Assembly: GCA_025058835.1 (NCBI GenBank)
Contig: JANXEI010000001.1
Location: 376,561-440,560, forward strand
Direction: 5' to 3'
From: Acidilobaceae archaeon
GTDB taxonomy: Archaea; Thermoproteota; Thermoprotei_A; Sulfolobales; Acidilobaceae
DNA length: 64,000 nucleotides
Below, piece after piece: positions 22,664 to 41,427 of the stretch (positions are counted from its first letter, which is position 1; the number at the start of each line of letters is the position of its first letter). The position numbers and the translations under genes are program-made. Under the pieces are notes generated by a model. The model had not been told where the DNA came from and ran no database searches. It worked only from the letters and a program-made list of their open reading frames with translations.

Positions 22664-24001
22664 ATGGAGCTAGCCCCTCTGAGGACCTCGAGAAGGAGCG
22701 TTCACAGTCACATAACTGGTCTAGGGCTGGACGAGAGGGGGAGGGCAAAGAGGGTAGGAGGAGGGTTAGTTGGGCAGGAGAGGGCTAGAGAGGCAGCAGG
22801 CATAGTAGTGCAGCTCGTAAAAGAGGGCAGGCTAGGCGGGAGGGGAGTACTAATAGTAGGCCCGCCGGGGACAGGGAAGACTGCCATAGCTTTTGCCATA
22901 GCGAAGGAGCTGGGGAGCGACACGCCCTTCGTGGCAATAGATGCGGGGGAGGTGGCAGGCTTGCCGAAGAAGACGGAGGTCCTTCTCCAGGCCTTCAGGA
23001 GGGCCATGGGAGTGAGAGTAAGGGACGAGAGGGAGGTAGTGGAAGGGGTAATAGTAGACCTGAAGTACATAAGGAGGCAGAGTCCCTTCTCTCCCTACCC
23101 CGTCCTGGGAGGGGCAAAGATAACTCTCGAGACGAGACAGGAGACGACCACCTTCAGCGTGGGACCTGAGATTGCAGAGCAGCTCATGAGCCTCAACGCC
23201 AGGAAAGGGGACGTAGTTACTATAGACGTGGAGAGCGGAGCTGTGAGGAAGCTCGGGAGGGTGAGGGAGAAGGCAGAGAGATGGTATGACCTTGGTACTG
23301 AGAAGGAGATAGAGGTGCCCTCTGGACCTGTAAGGAAGAAGAAGGAGTTCGTAAGGGTCATAACGCTTCACGACCTGGACCTCAGCGTTGCGGCAAGGAG
23401 GGTTGCCTTCTCAGGCCTCCTTGCCCTGCTGGAAACTGAGAGGGAGATAGGCGATGAGGACAGGAAACAGGCTAACGAAATTGTCAAGAAGATGTTAGAC
23501 GAGAAGAGAGCTGAGCTGGTGCCCGGCGTGATATTCATAGACGACGTCCATATGCTGGACTTGGAGAGCTTCTCCTTCCTTACGAAGGCCATGGAGAGCG
23601 ACTTCTCCCCTATACTCATACTCGCTACGAACAGAGGGATAGCAAAGATCAGGGGGACTGACATAGAGTCTCCTCACGGAATGCCGAGAGACCTGTTGGA
23701 CAGGCTCCTCATCATAACGACTACTCCGTATAGCCCAGAGGAAATCAAGGAGATCATATCCATCAGGGCGGACGAGGAGGACGTGCCCCTCTCCGAGGAA
23801 GCGCTAAAGCTGCTCACGAAGTTGGGCGCAGAGAGGAGCGTTAGATATGCCGTGCAGCTGCTGGAGCCCGCCAGGATGATAGCCCAGAGGAGGGGGTCTG
23901 CGAAGGTTGAGACGAGCGATGTGGAAGAGGCCTCGAGGCTCTTCGCCGACCTTAAGCGGAGCGTGGAGATGGTAGAAAAATATAAGGAATTCATGATGTA
24001 G
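22664..24001 (+). CDS. TIP49/RuvBL-family AAA+ ATPase
   Basis: Archaeal homologue of eukaryotic RuvBL1/2, an AAA+ ATPase of chromatin and RNP assembly complexes; crenarchaeal role unknown. Domain I holds Walker A GPPGTGKT (residues 66-73), followed by the TIP49-type inserted OB-like domain II (about 115-240), then Walker B, sensor and AAA lid (AERSVRYAVQLLEPARMIAQ). Walker B reads IFIDDVHMLD, so the usual catalytic Glu is Asp. 445 aa. Divergent from rpoH. Confidence 0.9.
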   Translation: MELAPLRTSRRSVHSHITGLGLDERGRAKRVGGGLVGQERAREAAGIVVQLVKEGRLGGRGVLIVGPPGTGKTAIAFAIAKELGSDTPFVAIDAGEVAGLPKKTEVLLQAFRRAMGVRVRDEREVVEGVIVDLKYIRRQSPFSPYPVLGGAKITLETRQETTTFSVGPEIAEQLMSLNARKGDVVTIDVESGAVRKLGRVREKAERWYDLGTEKEIEVPSGPVRKKKEFVRVITLHDLDLSVAARRVAFSGLLALLETEREIGDEDRKQANEIVKKMLDEKRAELVPGVIFIDDVHMLDLESFSFLTKAMESDFSPILILATNRGIAKIRGTDIESPHGMPRDLLDRLLIITTTPYSPEEIKEIISIRADEEDVPLSEEALKLLTKLGAERSVRYAVQLLEPARMIAQRRGSAKVETSDVEEASRLFADLKRSVEMVEKYKEFMM

Positions 24002-33297: not shown

Positions 33298-36200
33298 CTA
33301 TGAACGCCTCATGAAGATCTGGTATGCTGCTGCTAGCAGCGAGATCAGCGCTGTCAACAAGCCGCTTATGCTCAATAGACGCGTGGTGTCGTGCTCCTGC
33401 CTGAGGCTCTGGATCTCTGAGGCCCTCTCCCCTATCTCCCTCTCCAGCTCTGACGAGGTAGCCTCTATCTGCCGGGAGAGCTCTGCTGACTTTCTGTTAA
33501 GCTCCGTGTTCAGAGCGCTCAGCCTCTCGCCGAGCTCCCTAGAGGCCGCCTCTAGGCTGGCCCTCAGCGCCCTTGCCTCCGCCTCAAGCCTAGATATCCT
33601 CTCCGCCTCTGCCCTTATTGCTGCCCTCAGGCTCTCGTTCATGAGGACAGCCCTCCTCTCGAGGGACTCGAGGCTCACCCTGAGGGCCCTCAGGCCGTCC
33701 TCAAGGGAAGCTACGGCCTGCTGGACGCCCCTGAGGGTGCTCTCAAGCCTGGCTATCTCAGCTCTCCTAGCTTCTGCCTCGCTAACTATTAGCCTCTCCA
33801 GCCTGGCGTCCTCAGCTCTCCTAGCTTCTGCCTCACGCTGGAGGTCTCCTCGTAGAGCTCTGACTGCCTCCTCCACTGTCCTCAAGGCCCTCTCCAGCAG
33901 CCCTATGCTCTGGTTCAGGCGCCTTGTTTCTGCTTTCCTGTCCTCTGACTCTCTGACTATTAGCCTCTCCAGCCTGGCGTCCTCAGCTCTCCTAGCTTCT
34001 GACTCCTGCCTCAGCAGCTGCTCTAGCCTCTCTACTTCTGCCCTTCTCGCAGCTATCTCTCTCTGTAGCTCCGTCCTCAGGCTAGAGAGGTTCCTCTCAA
34101 GCGACTGAACGGACTGTTGGAGGTTTCTAATGGACTCATCCAGCCTTGCTATCTCTCTCCTCCTGGCCTCTGCCTCGTTCTGTAGCTGCTGGGATAGGCT
34201 GTTGATCGCTTGATCTAGCCTAGCTATCTCTCTCCTCCTGGCCTCTGCCTCGTTCTGTAGCTGCTCAGCTAGGGACCTCACGCTCTGCTCTAGGGAGGAA
34301 AGGGAGCTCTGCACGCCACTGATCGCTCTCTCTAGCCTCTCTATCTCTGCCCTTCTCTGCTCCGACTCCTGCCTTATCATCTGCTCTAGCCTAGAGGTGC
34401 TACTCTGCAGCTCCTGCCTCAGGACCTCCAGCGAATACCCTAGGAAGCTCACGGTGTTCTGCAGGCTCTGTACGGAGCCCCGGAGCTCTGCCATGGCCAT
34501 GTCGAGCCTCTCTATGTTACTGGCGACGGAACCCACTACAATAGCTATGCTCGCAGGAGCAATCGGGCCTTGTGAGTTCAGCGTTAGCATGTAGAGGCCC
34601 TGTTCGGTAACGTAGTGCACACTGCCAGCAGAGTTGAGGAAGCTGGGAGACGTGAGAACAATCATAGGCATCGTCGTAATTCCGTTGCCTGACCGTATCA
34701 CCACAAACAGGGGCTCCATGGCTGCACGGCGCACGTTCACGAAAAGAACGGGGTGATCGAAAAAGTCGTCCCGTGAGTTGAGACTCATTACGGCAACTCC
34801 ACCGTTCCACGGAAGGTCAAGCCTAACGTCTAAGGGAACAGTTACGAGGAATGGGAACCTGTGGGTGATCCCGTGGCCTTTTAGGACCACGTAGCCTCCC
34901 GCTACCCCAGGCGGAAGGTCCCTGAAGCTCACCGTTATGCTTGCAGAACCCCCTTGCGGCAGGGAGAGTCTAGAGTGGCTAACGGAGAATCGGCCAGTTA
35001 AGTTCACTAGATCTGGATCGTACTCGTATCTAGCCACTATGCTCACCTCCAGATTCACGGCAGAGCCCGCTATGTTAGTGACCCTGAACGAGAAGGAGCC
35101 GGAGGGGGCGGAGAGCATGTGCACGAAAGGCCTGCCTCCTGAGTCCATGCTCACCAGCCTGGACACTGCAGCCGTCAAGTTGATCTGTCCTGCCCCGTGA
35201 TCTGTGATGGTGCTCACGGTAAGCCCTGGGTTGTTGTTGCCTACCAGCACGTCCCTCGCAGTTTGCGCTAGGGCCTTAGCGACCTCCGCTGGGTCCAGAG
35301 GCCTGCTTTGGCTCAGGAGCTGCTGGATTATTATGGCGGCTGCTCCAGCAGCATGAGGAGTTGACATCGAGGTGCCACTGTAAACCGCAGTGGGCACAGG
35401 GCTATCGTCCATCTCTGGAACTGAGGCAGAGAGTATGTCCACCCCTGGCGCAGAGACTAGGGGCACCATCATGCCTGGGAAGCCTGGGCCTCTGGAGCTG
35501 AAGAAAGCCATCATGTCGTCCGCAGTGCTCAAGGTCCTATTATCGTTCGTGGCTCCAACGCATATGACGCCGCTAGCAATACAGAGGTAGTTGAAGAAGT
35601 TGATCCCGTATCCGTTCCCTGCAGCGACCGTCACTACGGCTCTCGAGGCCGCCCTCTCCAACACCTCAACAGTAGCGAGCTTGGGTATTGCGCCGGCGTG
35701 CGCAGCATAGAGAGTCCAGGGACGAACTATCGCGCCTAGGCTCATGGTAATTATGTGCGGCTCATCGCCGCTACCAGGCTGGTTGTCTGGGCCCAGCAGT
35801 GCTCTCTCCACTCCCCTGGCAACAATTGCATCAGTAGTAAACTGACATGGACGGGCGAAGACTATTATGTCGTAGAGAACTACGCCTGGAGCAACGCCCC
35901 TGAACGTATCGTCCTGGCTAGCCAGTATGCCCGCGACGTGGGTTCCGTGATCCGATGCCCAAAATGTGTCTTTGCCGCAATAATCCACTTCGCCCTCCTC
36001 AGTAGCGTCGTACTCCCACACGACTATGCTCCTCCCGCCTCTCATGAACCACGGGTGATCGTTGTATATCCCATCATCTATGACTGCCACCCTAACGCCG
36101 CTCCCGTTCAGCCCCATAGCCCAAGCGGAGGGGGCGCCTATGCTGGGAACGCTTATTACCACCATGGGCTCGAGGGACCCTGCTGGCTCTTCGACAGGCT

Positions 36201-36501
36201 TTATGAGCTGGAGCCGAGAATTAGTGTAGACCTCGTATCCGAGGGCGGAGAGCCTCCCGACGGTCTCTGGGGAAGCCTTGATCAGCACGCCGCCTAGCAG
36301 CGGGAACTCCTCGAGAACTGTTCCTCCTGCAGACCTGACCGCGGACTCGAGGGACTCCATCCTCTCCCTGCTAGAGGGGTATGGGCCGAAGACGAGGAAC
36401 TCCGTCTCCTCTCCCTTGGGGCTCTTAGAGAACGCATGAACGGGGAACGTGTTCAATAACATCATTATGAGTACTAGAACTCCCATGAAAGTTCTAAGCA
36501 A
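33298..36501 (-). CDS. membrane-anchored subtilisin-like protease with long coiled-coil stalk
   Basis: Secreted S8 serine protease of 1067 aa. Order: signal peptide (about 1-23); propeptide-like region ending near 110; subtilase domain with the triad Asp142 (AVIDDGI), His185 (DHGTHVAG), Ser378 (GTSMSTPH) and oxyanion Asn296; beta-sandwich domains to about 650; then about 380 residues of nearly unbroken coiled coil made of Glu/Arg/Leu repeats; and a C-terminal hydrophobic helix (LLTALISLLAAAYQIF) with basic tail that would anchor it in the cell membrane. The layout suggests an enzyme held above the membrane by its own rod. TTG 36501 is the start by TATA position (leaderless); ATG 36486 is an alternative. 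Confidence 0.88.
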   Translation of the reverse strand: MLRTFMGVLVLIMMLLNTFPVHAFSKSPKGEETEFLVFGPYPSSRERMESLESAVRSAGGTVLEEFPLLGGVLIKASPETVGRLSALGYEVYTNSRLQLIKPVEEPAGSLEPMVVISVPSIGAPSAWAMGLNGSGVRVAVIDDGIYNDHPWFMRGGRSIVVWEYDATEEGEVDYCGKDTFWASDHGTHVAGILASQDDTFRGVAPGVVLYDIIVFARPCQFTTDAIVARGVERALLGPDNQPGSGDEPHIITMSLGAIVRPWTLYAAHAGAIPKLATVEVLERAASRAVVTVAAGNGYGINFFNYLCIASGVICVGATNDNRTLSTADDMMAFFSSRGPGFPGMMVPLVSAPGVDILSASVPEMDDSPVPTAVYSGTSMSTPHAAGAAAIIIQQLLSQSRPLDPAEVAKALAQTARDVLVGNNNPGLTVSTITDHGAGQINLTAAVSRLVSMDSGGRPFVHMLSAPSGSFSFRVTNIAGSAVNLEVSIVARYEYDPDLVNLTGRFSVSHSRLSLPQGGSASITVSFRDLPPGVAGGYVVLKGHGITHRFPFLVTVPLDVRLDLPWNGGVAVMSLNSRDDFFDHPVLFVNVRRAAMEPLFVVIRSGNGITTMPMIVLTSPSFLNSAGSVHYVTEQGLYMLTLNSQGPIAPASIAIVVGSVASNIERLDMAMAELRGSVQSLQNTVSFLGYSLEVLRQELQSSTSRLEQMIRQESEQRRAEIERLERAISGVQSSLSSLEQSVRSLAEQLQNEAEARRREIARLDQAINSLSQQLQNEAEARRREIARLDESIRNLQQSVQSLERNLSSLRTELQREIAARRAEVERLEQLLRQESEARRAEDARLERLIVRESEDRKAETRRLNQSIGLLERALRTVEEAVRALRGDLQREAEARRAEDARLERLIVSEAEARRAEIARLESTLRGVQQAVASLEDGLRALRVSLESLERRAVLMNESLRAAIRAEAERISRLEAEARALRASLEAASRELGERLSALNTELNRKSAELSRQIEATSSELEREIGERASEIQSLRQEHDTTRLLSISGLLTALISLLAAAYQIFMRRS
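33785..34265 (-). repeat. near-identical DNA repeats inside the coiled-coil region
   Basis: A 46-bp stretch occurs identically at 33785-33830 and 33956-34001 (offset 171 bp, 57 codons), and a 43-bp stretch at 34148-34190 and 34223-34265 (offset 75 bp, 25 codons). Offsets are multiples of three, so stalk length can grow or shrink in frame. They encode units like LQNEAEARRREIARLD. Confidence 0.85.
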
Positions 36502-36520
36502 CCCTTCACTGCTAAATGCG

Positions 36521-36530
36521 AATTTATATG
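36521..36530 (-). promoter_or_regulatory. TATA box of the subtilase gene
   Basis: CATATAAATT on the minus strand, centred near 36526, predicts transcription from about 36500, i.e. a leaderless message beginning at TTG 36501. Confidence 0.55.
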
Positions 36531-36555
36531 TTTTCTCTAAAGAGGTTCTGACCCT

Positions 36556-36819
36556 CTAGCTGGGGCCTGAATGGGCTAGCTGCTTTCTGCGACGGAACGC
36601 GATGTCCACGGAGAGCAAGGCTAACAGCTCGCTGCCTAACGCAACGAGCTCGAATAGGTCCAGTTCTTCCCTCAACCTCGTGACTCCTTACAAGCTGGGG
36701 GATTTGCTTGGTCTCCCCACGAGGGAGGTGTAGATCGTCGCGGAGGCCCGCAACTTCACCTCTAGCTCGAGGGCCTTTGGTCGAGCAAGTGAGAGGGCCT
36801 CATGCGCCCTCGAGGAGCC
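36556..36819 (-). pseudogene. possible decayed gene, interrupted by one stop
   Basis: The 430 bp between 36502 and 36932 contain no intact gene. One minus-strand frame is open from 36819 to a stop at 36556-36558 apart from a single TAA at 36688-36690. Both halves look like helical protein (EALSLARPKALELEVKLRA; then LREELDLFELVALGSELLAL followed by basic RRRKQ). No start codon in good context is seen. Might be a remnant of a short helical protein gene, or chance; family not recognised. Confidence 0.35.
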
Positions 36820-36932
36820 TCAGCTCCATCCGGGAGTCGTGAGCAGGTAAACCCAGGGGGCAGGAGGCGTAGCTCTTGCTCGAGGAGGAGGCTACTGCCT
36901 AATATGCTCTCCTGCCTTATTTGCTAGCGCTC

Positions 36933-37544
36933 CTATAGCCTACTCTCTATGCTTATGGAGAGCAAGCGGAGGGACGCAGCTATGAGATGTTCCCTGCAGC
37001 TCTCTGGGACTATTATGAGGGTGCCCTCTCTCTTGCTCGTGAGCCCAGCGTCTATGAGGGCTTTGACGTCATCTGGCAGCCCTGGGTAAAAAGTCTCGCC
37101 CCCCTCCCTGCCCCCTACTATGACCTTCTCGCACCCCTCCCTAACTATCTTGTCCCTTATGGTGTACACCTTCACCAAATCTCTCGGAGGAGGGACCTCT
37201 CTGATCGTTGCCACAACGGCGCTCTCCCAGCCCTCGAAGGGCAGGCTTACCTGGCTGAACTCTACTGAGCCCTCGATTGCCCTCAAGACCTCCTCCCCTT
37301 TCTCGCTAGCCTTTACGCCCTCCGGAGAGGCCTCCGCGAGCCCTAACTCCTTCAGCCTGGCTATGAGGGTCTTAGCCGAGGCCTCCCCTATCCCGAGGGC
37401 TTGGGAGAGCCTTATCCTGCCTACGGTGGCAGAGGAGGCGAGCCGCAAGGCCTGGAGGACGTGATATGGGCTGTAGCTCGGGCTGCCGCCCCTCACAGGC
37501 TCTGCGGCCTTTAGGACGAGCTCTGCTGCCTCCCTAGCTCTCAT
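36933..37544 (-). CDS. HTH/DUF4443-type protein
   Basis: 203-aa protein with an N-terminal winged helix (residues about 28-90: IRLSQALGIGEASAKTLIARLKELGLAE) and a C-terminal alpha/beta domain (VKVYTIRDKIVREGCEKVIVGG) of the archaeal DUF4443 kind, possibly ligand binding. Likely a transcription regulator. The ATG at 37544 is preceded by a TATA-like TTTAAG (37575-37580), and a 16-bp inverted repeat (37586-37601) sits directly upstream of that box. Confidence 0.7.
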   Translation of the reverse strand: MRAREAAELVLKAAEPVRGGSPSYSPYHVLQALRLASSATVGRIRLSQALGIGEASAKTLIARLKELGLAEASPEGVKASEKGEEVLRAIEGSVEFSQVSLPFEGWESAVVATIREVPPPRDLVKVYTIRDKIVREGCEKVIVGGREGGETFYPGLPDDVKALIDAGLTSKREGTLIIVPESCREHLIAASLRLLSISIESRL

Positions 37545-37585
37545 GCCCCTCCCCTCCTCTCTCCGCTGCCGGGCTTAAAGTTTCG

Positions 37586-37601
37586 TTAACCCCCCGGTTA
37601 A
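37586..37601. promoter_or_regulatory. inverted repeat, copy 1
   Basis: TTAACCCCCCGGTTAA: arms TTAACC and GGTTAA around CCCC. Lies just upstream of the TATA box of the DUF4443 gene, beside an AT-richer 160-bp intergenic stretch. Confidence 0.7.
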
Positions 37602-37765
37602 TGGCTAGTAGCAACTACTACTGGATTTGGGCTTCCGAGCTCACTTTTGCAAGGTCTGGACGCCGTATTACGGCTGACTATTATACAAACTTTTAGAAAG
37701 TAGGATCAGTCCTAATGCTAACACATGGCTTGCCGTCTAGCAATAATACTCTTTTGAAGTAGTCG

Positions 37766-38470
37766 TTACTGCTGGCACCTCTCTATCTCTGCCTTTAGGC
37801 TCTTGGAGAAGCCTACCCTTATGCCGAGCCTAGGGTCAGTGTAGAGGTACACCAGGCCTTTGCTCTGGAGATCTCTCAAGGCCTTCATGAGCCAGGTGAA
37901 GTCGGCTCCCATCCTCTCCTGGAGCTGGTCCACGTACATATACGTGGTGCCCCACCTGGCGTAGTGGGAGAACAGGCTCATGACCACCTCCAGCTCCCCC
38001 TCGCTCACGTGGTCCTTGATGGAGTTCAGGACGCAAGTAGAGATAGAGACCCTTTCTTGTAATTTATTGCTCTCCTTACCTTTTTGCTCTGCAATAAATG
38101 ACAAAACCCCTCCAGACTTCCCCCTCCCCTGCTCCAGCCTTTTGTCTTTCTTTGCAGCCTTTATGCGTGAAGTGAGGACCTTATGAGCTACCGCCAGGTA
38201 CTCGTCCTCCTCCCTCGTCTCCCTCTCGTATATTTCCCTCGCATATGCCTCCCCCTTTGGGGTGAGCCTCCAGAGGCCAGCCTCGTACTCCACGTAACCT
38301 CTAGCCTTCCAGTAGGAGAGGTAGCTCGAGACGTACTGGGAGCTCTTCTCTAGTAGCCCAGCTATCTCCCCTGACCTCATTGGGCGGGAGAGGAGGAGAA
38401 GGAGGATGGCATCTACTGTTCTGCTCCTCGGTCCTCCCCTCCTCGCCCTCTCCCTTATCGAGTCCAGCAC
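37766..38470 (-). CDS. double winged-helix protein, WhiP-like (possible replication initiator)
   Basis: 234-aa protein with two winged-helix domains: N-terminal (RSGEIAGLLEKSSQYVSSYL and GLWRLTPKGEAYAREI, residues about 15-80) and C-terminal (LQERMGADFTWLMKALRDLQ, about 180-225), joined by a Lys-rich linker (KAAKKDKRLEQGRGK). This layout recalls crenarchaeal WhiP, a Cdt1-related protein encoded beside replication origins in Sulfolobus and Aeropyrum; an ordinary transcription regulator is the alternative. GTG start at 38470; an in-frame stop lies just upstream. Copies 2 and 3 of the inverted repeat lie 94-134 bp before its start. Confidence 0.6.
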   Translation of the reverse strand: MLDSIRERARRGGPRSRTVDAILLLLLSRPMRSGEIAGLLEKSSQYVSSYLSYWKARGYVEYEAGLWRLTPKGEAYAREIYERETREEDEYLAVAHKVLTSRIKAAKKDKRLEQGRGKSGGVLSFIAEQKGKESNKLQERVSISTCVLNSIKDHVSEGELEVVMSLFSHYARWGTTYMYVDQLQERMGADFTWLMKALRDLQSKGLVYLYTDPRLGIRVGFSKSLKAEIERCQQ

Positions 38471-38563
38471 CCTCTTCAGCTCATCCTCCAGAACGGCCCC
38501 CTGCTCTCCTTACCCCAGAGAGCTCTTCTCGGGCGGAGGTAGGTGTTATTTGGTTGTTACTCC

Positions 38564-38582
38564 GTTAAACCGGGGAGTTAAC
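38564..38582. promoter_or_regulatory. inverted repeat, copy 2
   Basis: GTTAAACCGGGGAGTTAAC: arms GTTAA/TTAAC around ACCGGGGAG; opposite orientation to copy 3 and about two helical turns from it. Upstream of the WhiP-like gene. Confidence 0.6.
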
Positions 38583-38587
38583 GCCCT

Positions 38588-38603
38588 TCAACCCCCCGGT
38601 TAA
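38588..38603. promoter_or_regulatory. inverted repeat, copy 3
   Basis: TCAACCCCCCGGTTAA: differs from copy 1 at one position. Ends one base before the nreA stop codon. Confidence 0.7.
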
Positions 38604-38604
38604 C

Positions 38605-39828
38605 TCACATGAAGTCCGTGAGCCTGACCTGCCTTTTGAGCAGCCTGAGCTCCCCGAGGTACTTGAGGGCCTCTGGGCTCATCCTCCCCTCTGCCTCCTG
38701 CCTGATCTCCTCCCTCGTGGGCTCGCGCAGCAAGGGCGGGCTCTCCATGGCCCTCCTCACAGTCTCCCTTATGTGCCAGCTGCCCACAGGGGCATAGTAG
38801 CCCGGCGTTATCTCCCTCAGCACCGCCACGTCCCACCTCCTCCCCCTTCGTAACATGAACTCGAGGAGCGCTAGCCTGGCTGCAGAGAAGCCCCCATCTG
38901 CGGCTGTGGCCTCTCCGAGGGCGCTCTCCTCCACCTTCCACACCACGGGCCTCGGGGAGCTGGTGGCCCAGAAGCTCCTGGGGTGCCAGATCTCTATCCA
39001 CTCGAACCTCCCGGGGCCGGGCTTGAGGAAGATGAGGAACTTGTCGCCCAGGTACTCCCCGTAGTAGACCTCGAAGGAGCTCCCCTCCTGTGTCCCCCTC
39101 AGCCTCTCCCTGATCCCTCTCGAGACTATGTCGTCTACTGCCGTTATTGCCCAGCGGGTAGGCACCACCTTCCTCCTCCCGCGCTTGCCCATGAAGCCCA
39201 GGCTCAGGAGGCGCTGGATGGGGTAGACGTCAACCCCCCTGAAGTAGAGCTCCCTCACCCCCTCCTCTGCCTTTACCTCTTCGAAGAGGGCCCTCTCTAC
39301 TGGCCTAGGCAAGGAGGGGTTGCCGGTTACTTTGATCTCTTCAGCAGGCGCCCTGGGGCCTATGGGCTTAGTAATGCCGTCAAAGCGGAGGGCAGGGATG
39401 GGAGCCCTCTTGAGCTTGAGCTCAGAGTCCACGGGCCTTTCGGAGAGGGCCACGAGCCCCAGCTCCTTCTCGTACAGCACCTCCGGCTCGTCTACCCTCA
39501 CCTTTATCTGGCCGGAGAGGAGCTCGCTCCTGTACCTTATGATGCCCTCTATCCCAACCCTCCTCTTGCTCCACCCCACAGGGTCCTCGAAGGCCTTGGC
39601 CTCCTCTCCGTAGATACCTACGGGGACCATGAAGTGGAGGGAAACCTTGGGGTAGCCTGCCTCTCCCACCAGCACCGAGGGCGGGGTGGAGCCTTGGGCC
39701 ACGAGGCCCGAGAGCTTCATGTACGTCCTGACCTGTGCCTGGAAGCTCTCGAGGATGGGGCAGCGGGAGAGGCCACAGAGCTTCTTGTAGCCCTTGCACC
39801 TAGTGCAGAGCTCGGGAGGGATGTTCAT
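38605..39828 (-). CDS. nreA: DNA repair protein NreA, PCNA-interacting
   Basis: Archaeal Nre-family repair protein, 407 aa. N-terminal zinc site with Cys8, Cys11, Cys18 and Cys23 (CTRCKGYKKLCGLSRCPIL), the long Nre core (YFRGVDVYPIQRLLSLGFMG; TRWAITAVDDIVSRGI; WKVEESALGEATAADGG), and a C-terminal PCNA-interacting peptide, QVRLTDFM, in the last eight residues (PIP pattern Q-x-x-L-x-x-F). Known family role: repair of DNA damage by agents such as mitomycin C in haloarchaea. Starts 2 bp after the PhoU/TrkA-C gene, so it is the last gene of a four-gene operon. Confidence 0.87.
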   Translation of the reverse strand: MNIPPELCTRCKGYKKLCGLSRCPILESFQAQVRTYMKLSGLVAQGSTPPSVLVGEAGYPKVSLHFMVPVGIYGEEAKAFEDPVGWSKRRVGIEGIIRYRSELLSGQIKVRVDEPEVLYEKELGLVALSERPVDSELKLKRAPIPALRFDGITKPIGPRAPAEEIKVTGNPSLPRPVERALFEEVKAEEGVRELYFRGVDVYPIQRLLSLGFMGKRGRRKVVPTRWAITAVDDIVSRGIRERLRGTQEGSSFEVYYGEYLGDKFLIFLKPGPGRFEWIEIWHPRSFWATSSPRPVVWKVEESALGEATAADGGFSAARLALLEFMLRRGRRWDVAVLREITPGYYAPVGSWHIRETVRRAMESPPLLREPTREEIRQEAEGRMSPEALKYLGELRLLKRQVRLTDFM

Positions 39829-39830
39829 GC

Positions 39831-40961
39831 CTACCCTACCACCAGCCCCAGGCCCTTGAGCTCCTCTGCCTCACCTCCAGCCCTGTAGTACTTCAGGATG
39901 AGCTCGTCCCCCTCCTCGAGGGGCGCATCGGGAACGGGGGCTGTCCAGTCCCCTGCCCTTCTTATGGCTATGGGGATGAAGCCCCTCTCCTCTAGGCCCA
40001 TCTCCCTGGGAGAGCTGAAGGGCCTGACGAGCTTCACCCTAACATATGCCTCCTCCCCTTCCCTGACGATCTGGCTGAGCACTGGGGAGTGGTGCTTGTT
40101 CCTCACCACGTTAGCCATCCTGACTGCAGCGTCAGAGATCTCCTCCATGCTCTTTGCGAAGGCAACTAGGGAGACCATCTCCTGCGCCCTGCCGGGGTAG
40201 GAGGAGTTGAGCGTGAGCTCCAGGAGCTCGAAGAAGGCCTTGTTAGCATACTCTTTCATCTCCCCTACCGTCTCTGCAATACTGGCGTCGTTGTTGAGGA
40301 GGGAGTAGAGAGCTAGGTCTAGCATTGAGCGCGACAGGGCCTTGAGGGAGAGCAGGGTAGCTGCCAGCTGGTCCCCCGCAGCTGCCTGCACCCTTGCCTC
40401 CATAGCGCACCTCTCCCCCACATAGCTCTCCTCCCCCAGCGCCCTGGAGAGCTCTGCCACCTCCTCCAGAGGCCCCCTCACCACCAGGATGTCCCCTGGC
40501 GAGATGATCACGGAGGAGGGAGCTATCTCGTAACCCTCCCCCTTCCTGAGGAGGAGCACGTCCACCCTCGCGGACACTCCCCGGCTCTCCCTCCTGCTCC
40601 TGATGAGCCCCACGGACTCGCCGTGGCAGAGGGCTGCAGTGACGTAGGGGTGCGGCTGATACCCCCTCAAGGCGACCGTTGCCAGGTCCCCCGCAGCATC
40701 GCTTATGGTGTCGAGCGCTGAGGCTAGGTCTACGAGACCAATTGCCTCAGGCTCCCTAGACCTGTCTCTGAAGGCTAGGATGAGCTTTGCTATAACCTCT
40801 TTGTAGAGCTCGTCTATGTCCTCCTCTATCCTGAGGACTTCCAGGGCTGCCTGCTTGTCGCCGAAGGCCAGGGTGTACATTGCTAGGTCTATGGAGACGC
40901 TGGAGTAGAGCCTGAGCCCCACAAGTATGTCTCTAAGGGTAGCCCGCCTGAATCTGCCCAA
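39831..40961 (-). CDS. tandem PhoU + TrkA-C (RCK_C) domain protein
   Basis: 376-aa cytoplasmic protein made of an internally duplicated unit: PhoU-like helices (residues about 10-95) then a TrkA-C domain (about 105-180, ending ISPGDILVVRGPLEEVAELS), repeated as PhoU (about 195-290) and TrkA-C (about 300-370, APLEEGDELILKYYRAG). No membrane segment. TrkA-C domains bind nucleotide-type ligands and gate potassium channels; with PhoU helices this is probably a regulator of a K+ channel or transporter encoded elsewhere. Why it is in an operon with nreA is not obvious. Confidence 0.82.
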   Translation of the reverse strand: MGRFRRATLRDILVGLRLYSSVSIDLAMYTLAFGDKQAALEVLRIEEDIDELYKEVIAKLILAFRDRSREPEAIGLVDLASALDTISDAAGDLATVALRGYQPHPYVTAALCHGESVGLIRSRRESRGVSARVDVLLLRKGEGYEIAPSSVIISPGDILVVRGPLEEVAELSRALGEESYVGERCAMEARVQAAAGDQLAATLLSLKALSRSMLDLALYSLLNNDASIAETVGEMKEYANKAFFELLELTLNSSYPGRAQEMVSLVAFAKSMEEISDAAVRMANVVRNKHHSPVLSQIVREGEEAYVRVKLVRPFSSPREMGLEERGFIPIAIRRAGDWTAPVPDAPLEEGDELILKYYRAGGEAEELKGLGLVVG

Positions 40962-40983: not shown

Positions 40984-41427
40984 TTATCTCCTTGTCAATA
41001 AATATAAAACTATCGCAGCCTCAGCTATCGCGCCAAGCTTATGGCTAGCCCCGGCAAGGTAGAGGGGGGTGCCGTACTTCAGCTCTGCCGGCGAGAAGTC
41101 TGGCTCGCTGCCGTTGAAAACTATGGCGACCCTCCCCTTGTAAACCGGGGGGTTTAACGGATCCAGGCGCTGCTCTGCGCCCCCGTACATCATGATCACT
41201 GAGTCTGGCCTGTATATCTCGAGCAGGTCAGACAGGTCAGGGAGGACGGCAAAGCTCTTCCCTAGCTTGAGAGCTAGCCTCATTACATCTGGCACCCCCG
41301 ATTGGGCCGCGGCGCCATATACCTTGGTTGCAACGACGTGCTCTGCCCCAAGAGAGTAGGCTAGCTTAGCAAAGTCTAGGAGCCTCTGGGCACTGCTCAC
41401 GTTGTGGATGACTGGGAGCACCTCCAT
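40984..41427 (-). CDS. crenarchaeal conserved protein, SPOUT-like fold
   Basis: 147-aa protein. The opening VIHNVSSAQRLLDFAKLAYSL with ATKVYGAAAQSGVP, the middle VAIVFNGSEPDFSPAEL and the end GASHKLGAIAEAAIVLYLL follow the three motifs of SPOUT RNA methyltransferases (compare H-N-P-x-N, V-F-G-x-E-G-x-G-L and the S-L-N-V-x-x-A knot). Homologues in crenarchaeal genomes are, from memory, often labelled RecB-family nuclease, but no nuclease motif is visible here. Copy 4 of the inverted repeat lies inside the gene. Confidence 0.6.
   Translation of the reverse strand: MEVLPVIHNVSSAQRLLDFAKLAYSLGAEHVVATKVYGAAAQSGVPDVMRLALKLGKSFAVLPDLSDLLEIYRPDSVIMMYGGAEQRLDPLNPPVYKGRVAIVFNGSEPDFSPAELKYGTPLYLAGASHKLGAIAEAAIVLYLLTRR
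41141..41156. promoter_or_regulatory. inverted repeat, copy 4
   Basis: TAAACCGGGGGGTTTA: arms TAAACC/GGTTTA around GGGG, the same plan as copies 1-3. It is inside the coding region of the SPOUT-like gene (codons for LNPPVYKG), so it could be chance. Confidence 0.4.

Follow-up and report, generated by a model that had tools for sequence, protein, structure and literature searches.

A probable WhiP-type replication origin bracketed by a conserved palindrome in an Acidilobaceae archaeon

A 64-kb stretch of DNA from an uncultured, heat-loving Acidilobaceae archaeon very probably carries a WhiP-type (oriC3-type) origin of replication. The stretch, called the window here, is C11:376561-440560 of an archaeal genome of 1.19 Mb in 29 contigs, and the origin is placed at window positions 37545-38610. 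With a probability of roughly 0.9, this segment is an origin with the initiator WhiP and the protein UBP at its core and with 16-bp palindromes as a second type of site; the firing of the origin and the pairing of each protein with its box are predictions. The evidence in the DNA is the orthology of the whiP gene, the conservation of a ucm-like box beside it, the rarity of that box in the genome, the clustering of the palindromes, and a switch in keto skew, and together these point to an oriC3-type (WhiP) origin. An earlier note on this sequence had proposed that the block of 16-bp repeats was an oriC with its initiator. The origin itself is supported, while the repeats appear to be its flanks, and its predicted core is the AT-rich gap that contains the ucm-like box. 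The window origin is thus a further case of the known WhiP-origin kind, and the novel part is the palindrome that brackets it.

Several relatives served for comparison under assumed identities. We take G017 to be Aeropyrum pernix K1, G026 A. camini, G009 Caldisphaera lagunensis, G024 Acidilobus saccharovorans, G203 Sulfolobus acidocaldarius, and G055 Metallosphaera cuprina; G195 is likewise taken as S. solfataricus. These genomes are referred to below by their presumed names.

The gene beside the core encodes a protein whose distribution and architecture fit WhiP. It occupies 37766-38470 on the minus strand and encodes 234 residues, and it was characterized by orthology, profile search, and an AlphaFold model. 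WhiP is the initiator encoded beside Sulfolobus oriC3 (PMC12141716, PMC4010727). The orthologue is single-copy in 116 of the 214 genomes of the order, some of them weak single-domain matches in the profile search. Among the matches listed, every Sulfolobaceae genome has one copy, with E values of about 1e-80 to 1e-86, and orthologues are also found in most Acidilobaceae and in Pyrodictiaceae and Ignisphaera relatives. The named relatives of the protein are labeled mostly as Acidilobaceae, Caldisphaera, Aeropyrum, and Desulfurococcales metagenome-assembled genomes (MAGs), and an alignment of 30 family members has about 48 invariant columns. The two winged-helix domains read from the sequence in the earlier note are present in the AlphaFold model at residues 17-70 and 133-222 approximately, with a low-confidence linker between them; the mean predicted local distance difference test score is 76, both domains are around 90, and the overall predicted template modeling score is 0.44. 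Pfam and NCBIfam gave only MarR-like and Sso10a-like matches, all below cut-off. Because of its distribution, two-domain architecture, and position, the gene is identified as whiP. The protein might have turned out to be closest to ordinary regulators, but unlike an ordinary scattered regulator it has a single-copy orthologue beside a conserved core in nearly all lineages. As a separate observation, contig JAFMDM010000009.1 has the palindrome together with a ucm-like box and an orthologue of whiP; its title says Euryarchaeota, and it is probably a misnamed or mixed assembly.

The AT-rich intergenic gap directly 3' of the whiP stop codon is the candidate core and duplex-unwinding element (DUE). 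The gap spans 37604-37765 and is 57% AT, and equally AT-rich 162-bp stretches make up 0.2% of the window, in agreement with the remark in the note that it is AT-richer than its surroundings. Within it is an exact copy of the ucm-like box GTTTGTATAA (37681-37690, minus strand; in context AAAGTTTGTATAATAG). Exact copies were counted in 524 kb of the genome, where there are two, one in the window core and the other at C22:205326, inside the oriC1 on contig C22. When up to one mismatch is allowed, 42 of 58 whiP loci have the box in the 200 bp that follow the whiP stop (shuffles gave a mean of 2.9), and it precedes the whiP start in one case among the 58. The loci with a box after whiP cover Acidilobaceae, Sulfolobaceae, Ignisphaera, and Pyrodictiaceae.

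The same box is present at other types of origin. When the oriC1 regions of three Sulfolobaceae were aligned with that of this genome, one common box, GTTTGTATAA or a close variant, was found between the origin recognition boxes (ORBs), and the oriC2 of S. solfataricus also carries GTTTGTATAA or a close variant. The presumed A. pernix genome has the variant TTTTGTATCATT both in its whiP core and in an oriC1 with four ORBs. This matches the published finding that both A. pernix origins carry ucm, which lies in the AT-rich part of each origin (PMC12141716). We infer that GTTTGTATAA is the ucm of Sulfolobus and Aeropyrum origins. An orthologue of UBP is encoded in the genome. The UBP structures in the Protein Data Bank (9efd, 9efe, and 9eff) are filed under the molecule name 'Plasmid pARN4', which masks their identity in name searches.

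Inverted repeats surround the box within the core. The distal arm CAGTAGTAGTTGCTACTAG (37605-37623) is of the AGTAGTAGT type and forms an inverted pair with the CTACTACT-type proximal arm GACTACTT (37757-37764), of which the copy here is short. Inside this pair are the repeat GTATTATTG (37741-37749) and its inverted partner CGTAATACGG (37663-37672); all four are on the minus strand. The arms and inner repeats were picked by eye prior to counting, and the counts are descriptive: the proximal arm (ACTACT, CTACTACT type) is found at 28 of the 58 whiP loci versus 2.3 in shuffles, the distal arm (AGTAGTAGT type) at 37 versus 3.4, and the two members of the inner GTATTAT/GTAATAC pair at 18 and 19 versus 1.7 and 3.1. 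If the locus follows the Sulfolobus model (PMC12141716), WhiP produced from the adjacent gene would recognize the CTACTACT/AGTAGTAGT and GTATTAT/GTAATAC inverted repeats around 37604-37765, the UBP orthologue would bind the box at 37681-37690, MCM would be loaded, and forks would leave both ways. Another protein would bind the palindromes at the edges of the cassette formed by whiP and the core.

The genome very probably has two origins, an oriC1 on contig C22 and the WhiP-type origin in the window. A search pattern for ORBs, based on the known ORB and on a reading of the C22 locus, has four matches genome-wide, all in C22:205198-205469. They lie beside a second cluster of palindromes and have opposed orientations around the second ucm-like box. 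The genome scan gave no ORB match in the window, and classic ORBs are absent from the whiP locus; an Orc1/ORB (oriC1-type) origin was rejected for the window, as the ORB elements are found only on C22. A. pernix has exactly two mapped origins, corresponding to oriC1 and to the WhiP-dependent oriC3 (PMC10769869), and in the genome taken as this species oriC1 adjoins rpiA, the same gene as beside oriC1 on C22.

Skew was computed on stretches of 304 kb (C11) and 220 kb (C22), and it is supportive of the window origin but not decisive. Across the window locus the mean keto skew over 100 kb changes from +0.0121 to -0.0073 (block-permutation P = 0.0023), and the value observed at the whiP gene of A. 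pernix was reached by 0 of 20,000 permutations. After detrending, the amino/keto curve has its maxima at C11:423967, some 10 kb from the window core, at C22:204088, some 1.2 kb from oriC1, and at position 1,254,548 in A. pernix, some 6 kb from whiP. The GC and purine curves, which track gene orientation, have no peak at the window locus. The skew inflection that the note had looked for is thus present in the keto curve, while the plain GC skew has its minimum elsewhere.

Four copies of the palindrome TTAACYCCCC[G/A]GTTAA are found in the window, and three of them flank whiP and the core. TTAACCCCCCGGTTAA (37586-37601, plus strand) lies 165 bp after the whiP stop. On the upstream side of whiP are the variant TTAACTCCCCGGTTTA (38566-38581, minus strand) and TCAACCCCCCGGTTAA (38588-38603, plus strand), which ends just past the nreA stop codon. 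Their starts are 22 bp apart, consistent with the two helical turns estimated at the outset, and their distances upstream of the whiP start are 95 and 117 bp. The two plus-strand copies had been located correctly, the variant had been given as 38564-38582, and the fourth copy, TAAACCCCCCGGTTTA (41141-41156, minus strand, within a DUF2122 gene), is new. Window and genome were scanned with up to two mismatches. The four sites in the window compare with a mean of 0.05 and a maximum of 1 in dinucleotide shuffles. Genome-wide there are 11 sites, four in C11:414146-417716, four in C22:204662-206929, and three singles. Rather than being scattered evenly through the genome, 8 of the 11 bracket the two origin loci, the second of which is the ORB-bearing oriC1. 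In the C22 cluster (L018 8663-9200 and 10915), two palindromes lie inside a tiaS-like gene, one overlaps the tiaS-like stop codon, and one is inside a gene for a 91-residue MazG-like protein. Their embedding in coding sequence suggests selection on a DNA site within genes.

The palindrome is widespread in related genomes, and it is concentrated near whiP. Of the 36 genomes in the family, 32 contain the one-mismatch version, while a reversed control gave two matches in total in the family; the four genomes with none are G007 and three members of genus g7. Sequence lying within 1.5 kb of whiP adds up to 219 kb and holds 60 one-mismatch copies, and elsewhere there are 20 in 815 kb. In Acidilobaceae the palindromes are typically about 95-160 bp before whiP and 135-215 bp after it. 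Most Sulfolobaceae examined have them at about -0.4 kb and +1.06 to +1.42 kb of whiP, compared to about 0.1-0.2 kb from the gene here. The palindrome is also found at oriC1 and near oriC2 of Sulfolobaceae. It is 2 bp from the outer ORB at the C22 oriC1 and about 3 bp from an ORB at the oriC1 of S. solfataricus, S. acidocaldarius, M. cuprina, and A. pernix. A Caldisphaera genome has up to 30 scattered sites, showing that the palindrome is not confined to origins everywhere. In Pyrodictiaceae and Ignisphaera it was not found near whiP, though whiP and the ucm-like box are kept, and no alternative repeated palindrome was found in the palindrome-free lineages.

Conjugative plasmids of Sulfolobales carry the palindrome in many copies. 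Six of them (pHVE14, pARN4, pING1, pNOB8, pKEF9, and pAH1) have 12-21 palindromes each, mostly TAAACTCCCCAGTTTA (up to three mismatches; reversed control 0-4), and many of those in pNOB8 are intragenic. A repeated motif was reportedly noted when pNOB8 was sequenced. Literature searches with both versions of the palindrome arm gave only unrelated papers among the matches listed. Chromosomal clusters away from origins are found at 395-427 kb in S. acidocaldarius (G203), at G197:1612-1617 kb, and at G208:1127-1139 kb. The G197 cluster adjoins a gene for a conjugation-type ATPase, which suggests integrated plasmids.

A number of observations weigh against a WhiP-type origin in the window. Plain GC skew, followed over 304 kb, reaches its minimum at C11:494 kb, 80 kb off, and on C22 the keto switch at oriC1 falls short of significance over 100 kb (P = 0.12). 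The best Foldseek matches of the 234-residue protein are MarR-type single domains, and Cdt1, the eukaryotic protein to which a distant relation is expected of WhiP, is not among the 50 matches listed. The identification of whiP was made by distribution, architecture, and position, and not by a sequence record labeled WhiP, and the letters of ucm come from the alignment and are not printed in the text of PMC12141716. The chromosome is a 29-contig MAG. An opposing explanation would be an ordinary transcription-factor gene within a chance cluster of GC-rich inverted repeats, with no origin. The weak MarR-type Pfam matches are in keeping with it, but the excess of sites over the shuffled expectation and the deep conservation of core and orthology across families leave it hardly any probability.

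The palindromes could also be read in other ways. They might be an autoregulated operator, bound by a dimeric repressor (WhiP or the 203-residue winged helix-turn-helix protein of the neighboring gene) that controls whiP and its neighbors, with any nearby origin incidental. Their positions before and after whiP and by the start region of the 203-residue gene would suit an operator, as would the like placement in many Acidilobaceae and the scattered Caldisphaera sites. However, an operator accounts poorly for sites within or overlapping the ends of coding sequences on C22, for the copy inside DUF2122, for the palindrome that adjoins the outer ORB of oriC1, and for the lineages in which whiP and the ucm-like box are present with no palindrome close to the gene, and it leaves the conserved core unexplained; it is improbable. 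That the palindromes serve not initiation but a factor for chromosome organization or segregation loaded near origins, as parS/SegB-like sites, is possible but rather unlikely. Such a factor would explain why the palindromes cluster at both origins and are numerous on conjugative plasmids, and several of them are intragenic, as are 83.7% of SegB sites in S. solfataricus (PMC12284271). On the other hand, the SegB consensus TCTAGASTCTAGA differs from the palindrome (PMC12284271), PlrA is absent from the genome, and no candidate protein was found. It is about as doubtful that the palindromes are sites of Orc1-family proteins, possibly the palindromic C2/C3 elements of Sulfolobus oriC1 for Cdc6-2 and Cdc6-3. 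Palindromic C sequences in oriC1 are recognized by Cdc6 proteins (PMC3718332), the S. solfataricus palindrome is 3 bp from an ORB, and the genome has an Orc1-2-like gene. Yet oriC2 and oriC3 are without C sequences (PMC3718332) while the palindrome is near both, and 58 of 60 relatives have Orc1-2-like proteins, including palindrome-free genera and families.

The palindromes are probably read by a dimeric protein that acts around origins. The repeats are not WhiP-specific, because they are also found at oriC1 and oriC2 of relatives. The palindrome was first assumed to be ucm itself, since it recurs at all three Sulfolobus origins; this was rejected, as the oriC1 layout puts the palindrome outside the ORBs and the GTTTGTATAA box in the DUE. 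The palindrome also differs in sequence from the ORB element and from the SegB site. A PlrA/pRN ORF80 operator was rejected, with the PlrA family (PF05584) having no match in the genome and being found in 4 of 60 relatives. UBP does not discriminate, as 187 of 211 genomes encode it whether they carry palindromes or not, and neither does an Orc1-2-like protein, for which the search also catches Orc1-1 paralogues. The presence of PlrA, WhiP, or Orc1-2 does not explain the palindrome. Tentatively, and at less than even odds, TTAACYCCCC[G/A]GTTAA may be an origin-bracketing element that has so far gone undescribed, is widely conserved in Acidilobaceae and Sulfolobaceae, occurs on their conjugative plasmids as well, and has a dimeric protein as its reader. 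If so, it would serve as an origin mark for loading, sequestration, or segregation, and it would back the idea that these origins were captured from extrachromosomal elements.

The window origin resembles known systems in different ways. It shares with the oriC3/WhiP loci of S. islandicus, S. acidocaldarius, and S. solfataricus an orthologous gene, an AT-rich gap with GTTTGTATAA after the stop, CTACTACT/AGTAGTAGT arms, and nreA in the neighborhood, and differs in that the Sulfolobaceae box is reversed relative to whiP and the palindromes are mostly farther from the gene. A. pernix has its WhiP-type locus at about 1.260 Mb and its oriC1 at about 445 kb. Both whiP with flanking palindromes and the nreA-PhoU-DUF2122 synteny are alike, and so is the second origin, which lies beside rpiA and has four ORBs, the outer one adjoined by a palindrome; the ucm variant is different, and several palindromes have diverged to TTAACCCCCCGGTATA. 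As in the ucm/UBP system (PMC12141716), a box lies in the AT-rich part of each origin and a UBP orthologue is present, for which binding is predicted, but UBP has more than 300 sites in S. islandicus (PMC12141716) while the exact 10-mer was found only twice in 524 kb here. The TAAACTCCCCAGTTTA repeats of pNOB8-family plasmids share the palindromic core ACTCCCC[A/G]GT and TTAA- or TAAA-type ends; they are spread over each plasmid with no ucm box, in contrast to the concentration at two origins here. SegB sites are similarly palindromic, mostly intragenic, and in some cases near origins, with an unrelated sequence.

WhiP origins have so far been studied in very few organisms. About 58 aligned whiP loci provide a testable origin anatomy (core position, box, and inverted arms) from which origins can be predicted in lineages not yet cultured. 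That the palindrome occurs at oriC1, oriC2, and oriC3 in relatives and is abundant on conjugative plasmids points to a common factor at archaeal origins, which could be fished by DNA affinity, the approach that found UBP. It also bears on whether archaeal origins were captured from mobile elements.

The genes around the origin are partly conserved. The neighbor of whiP at 36933-37544 (minus strand) encodes the 203-residue winged helix-turn-helix protein, which has a CggR_N-like domain. Most Acidilobaceae loci have its orthologue next to whiP, with both side and orientation varying, and it is a possible functional partner of WhiP or of the origin. The upstream neighbor, nreA (38605-39828, minus strand), is still near whiP in Sulfolobaceae, at 2.7-4.1 kb, with the orthologue of the 203-residue protein between them at 1.3-2.5 kb from whiP. 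The order nreA, PhoU-like, DUF2122 is unchanged in Aeropyrum. An Rfam scan of 36000-40000 gave no match. A second initiator was considered at 22664-24001, where the open reading frame passes the Pfam cut-off for Cdc6_lid; by eye it is a TIP49/RuvB-like ATPase, and it was rejected as Orc1 with a best score of 32 bits against Orc1 proteins. Near the origin, at 33298-36501, is a gene whose 1067-residue product joins a subtilase to a long coiled-coil region and is apparently a protease that acts outside the cell.

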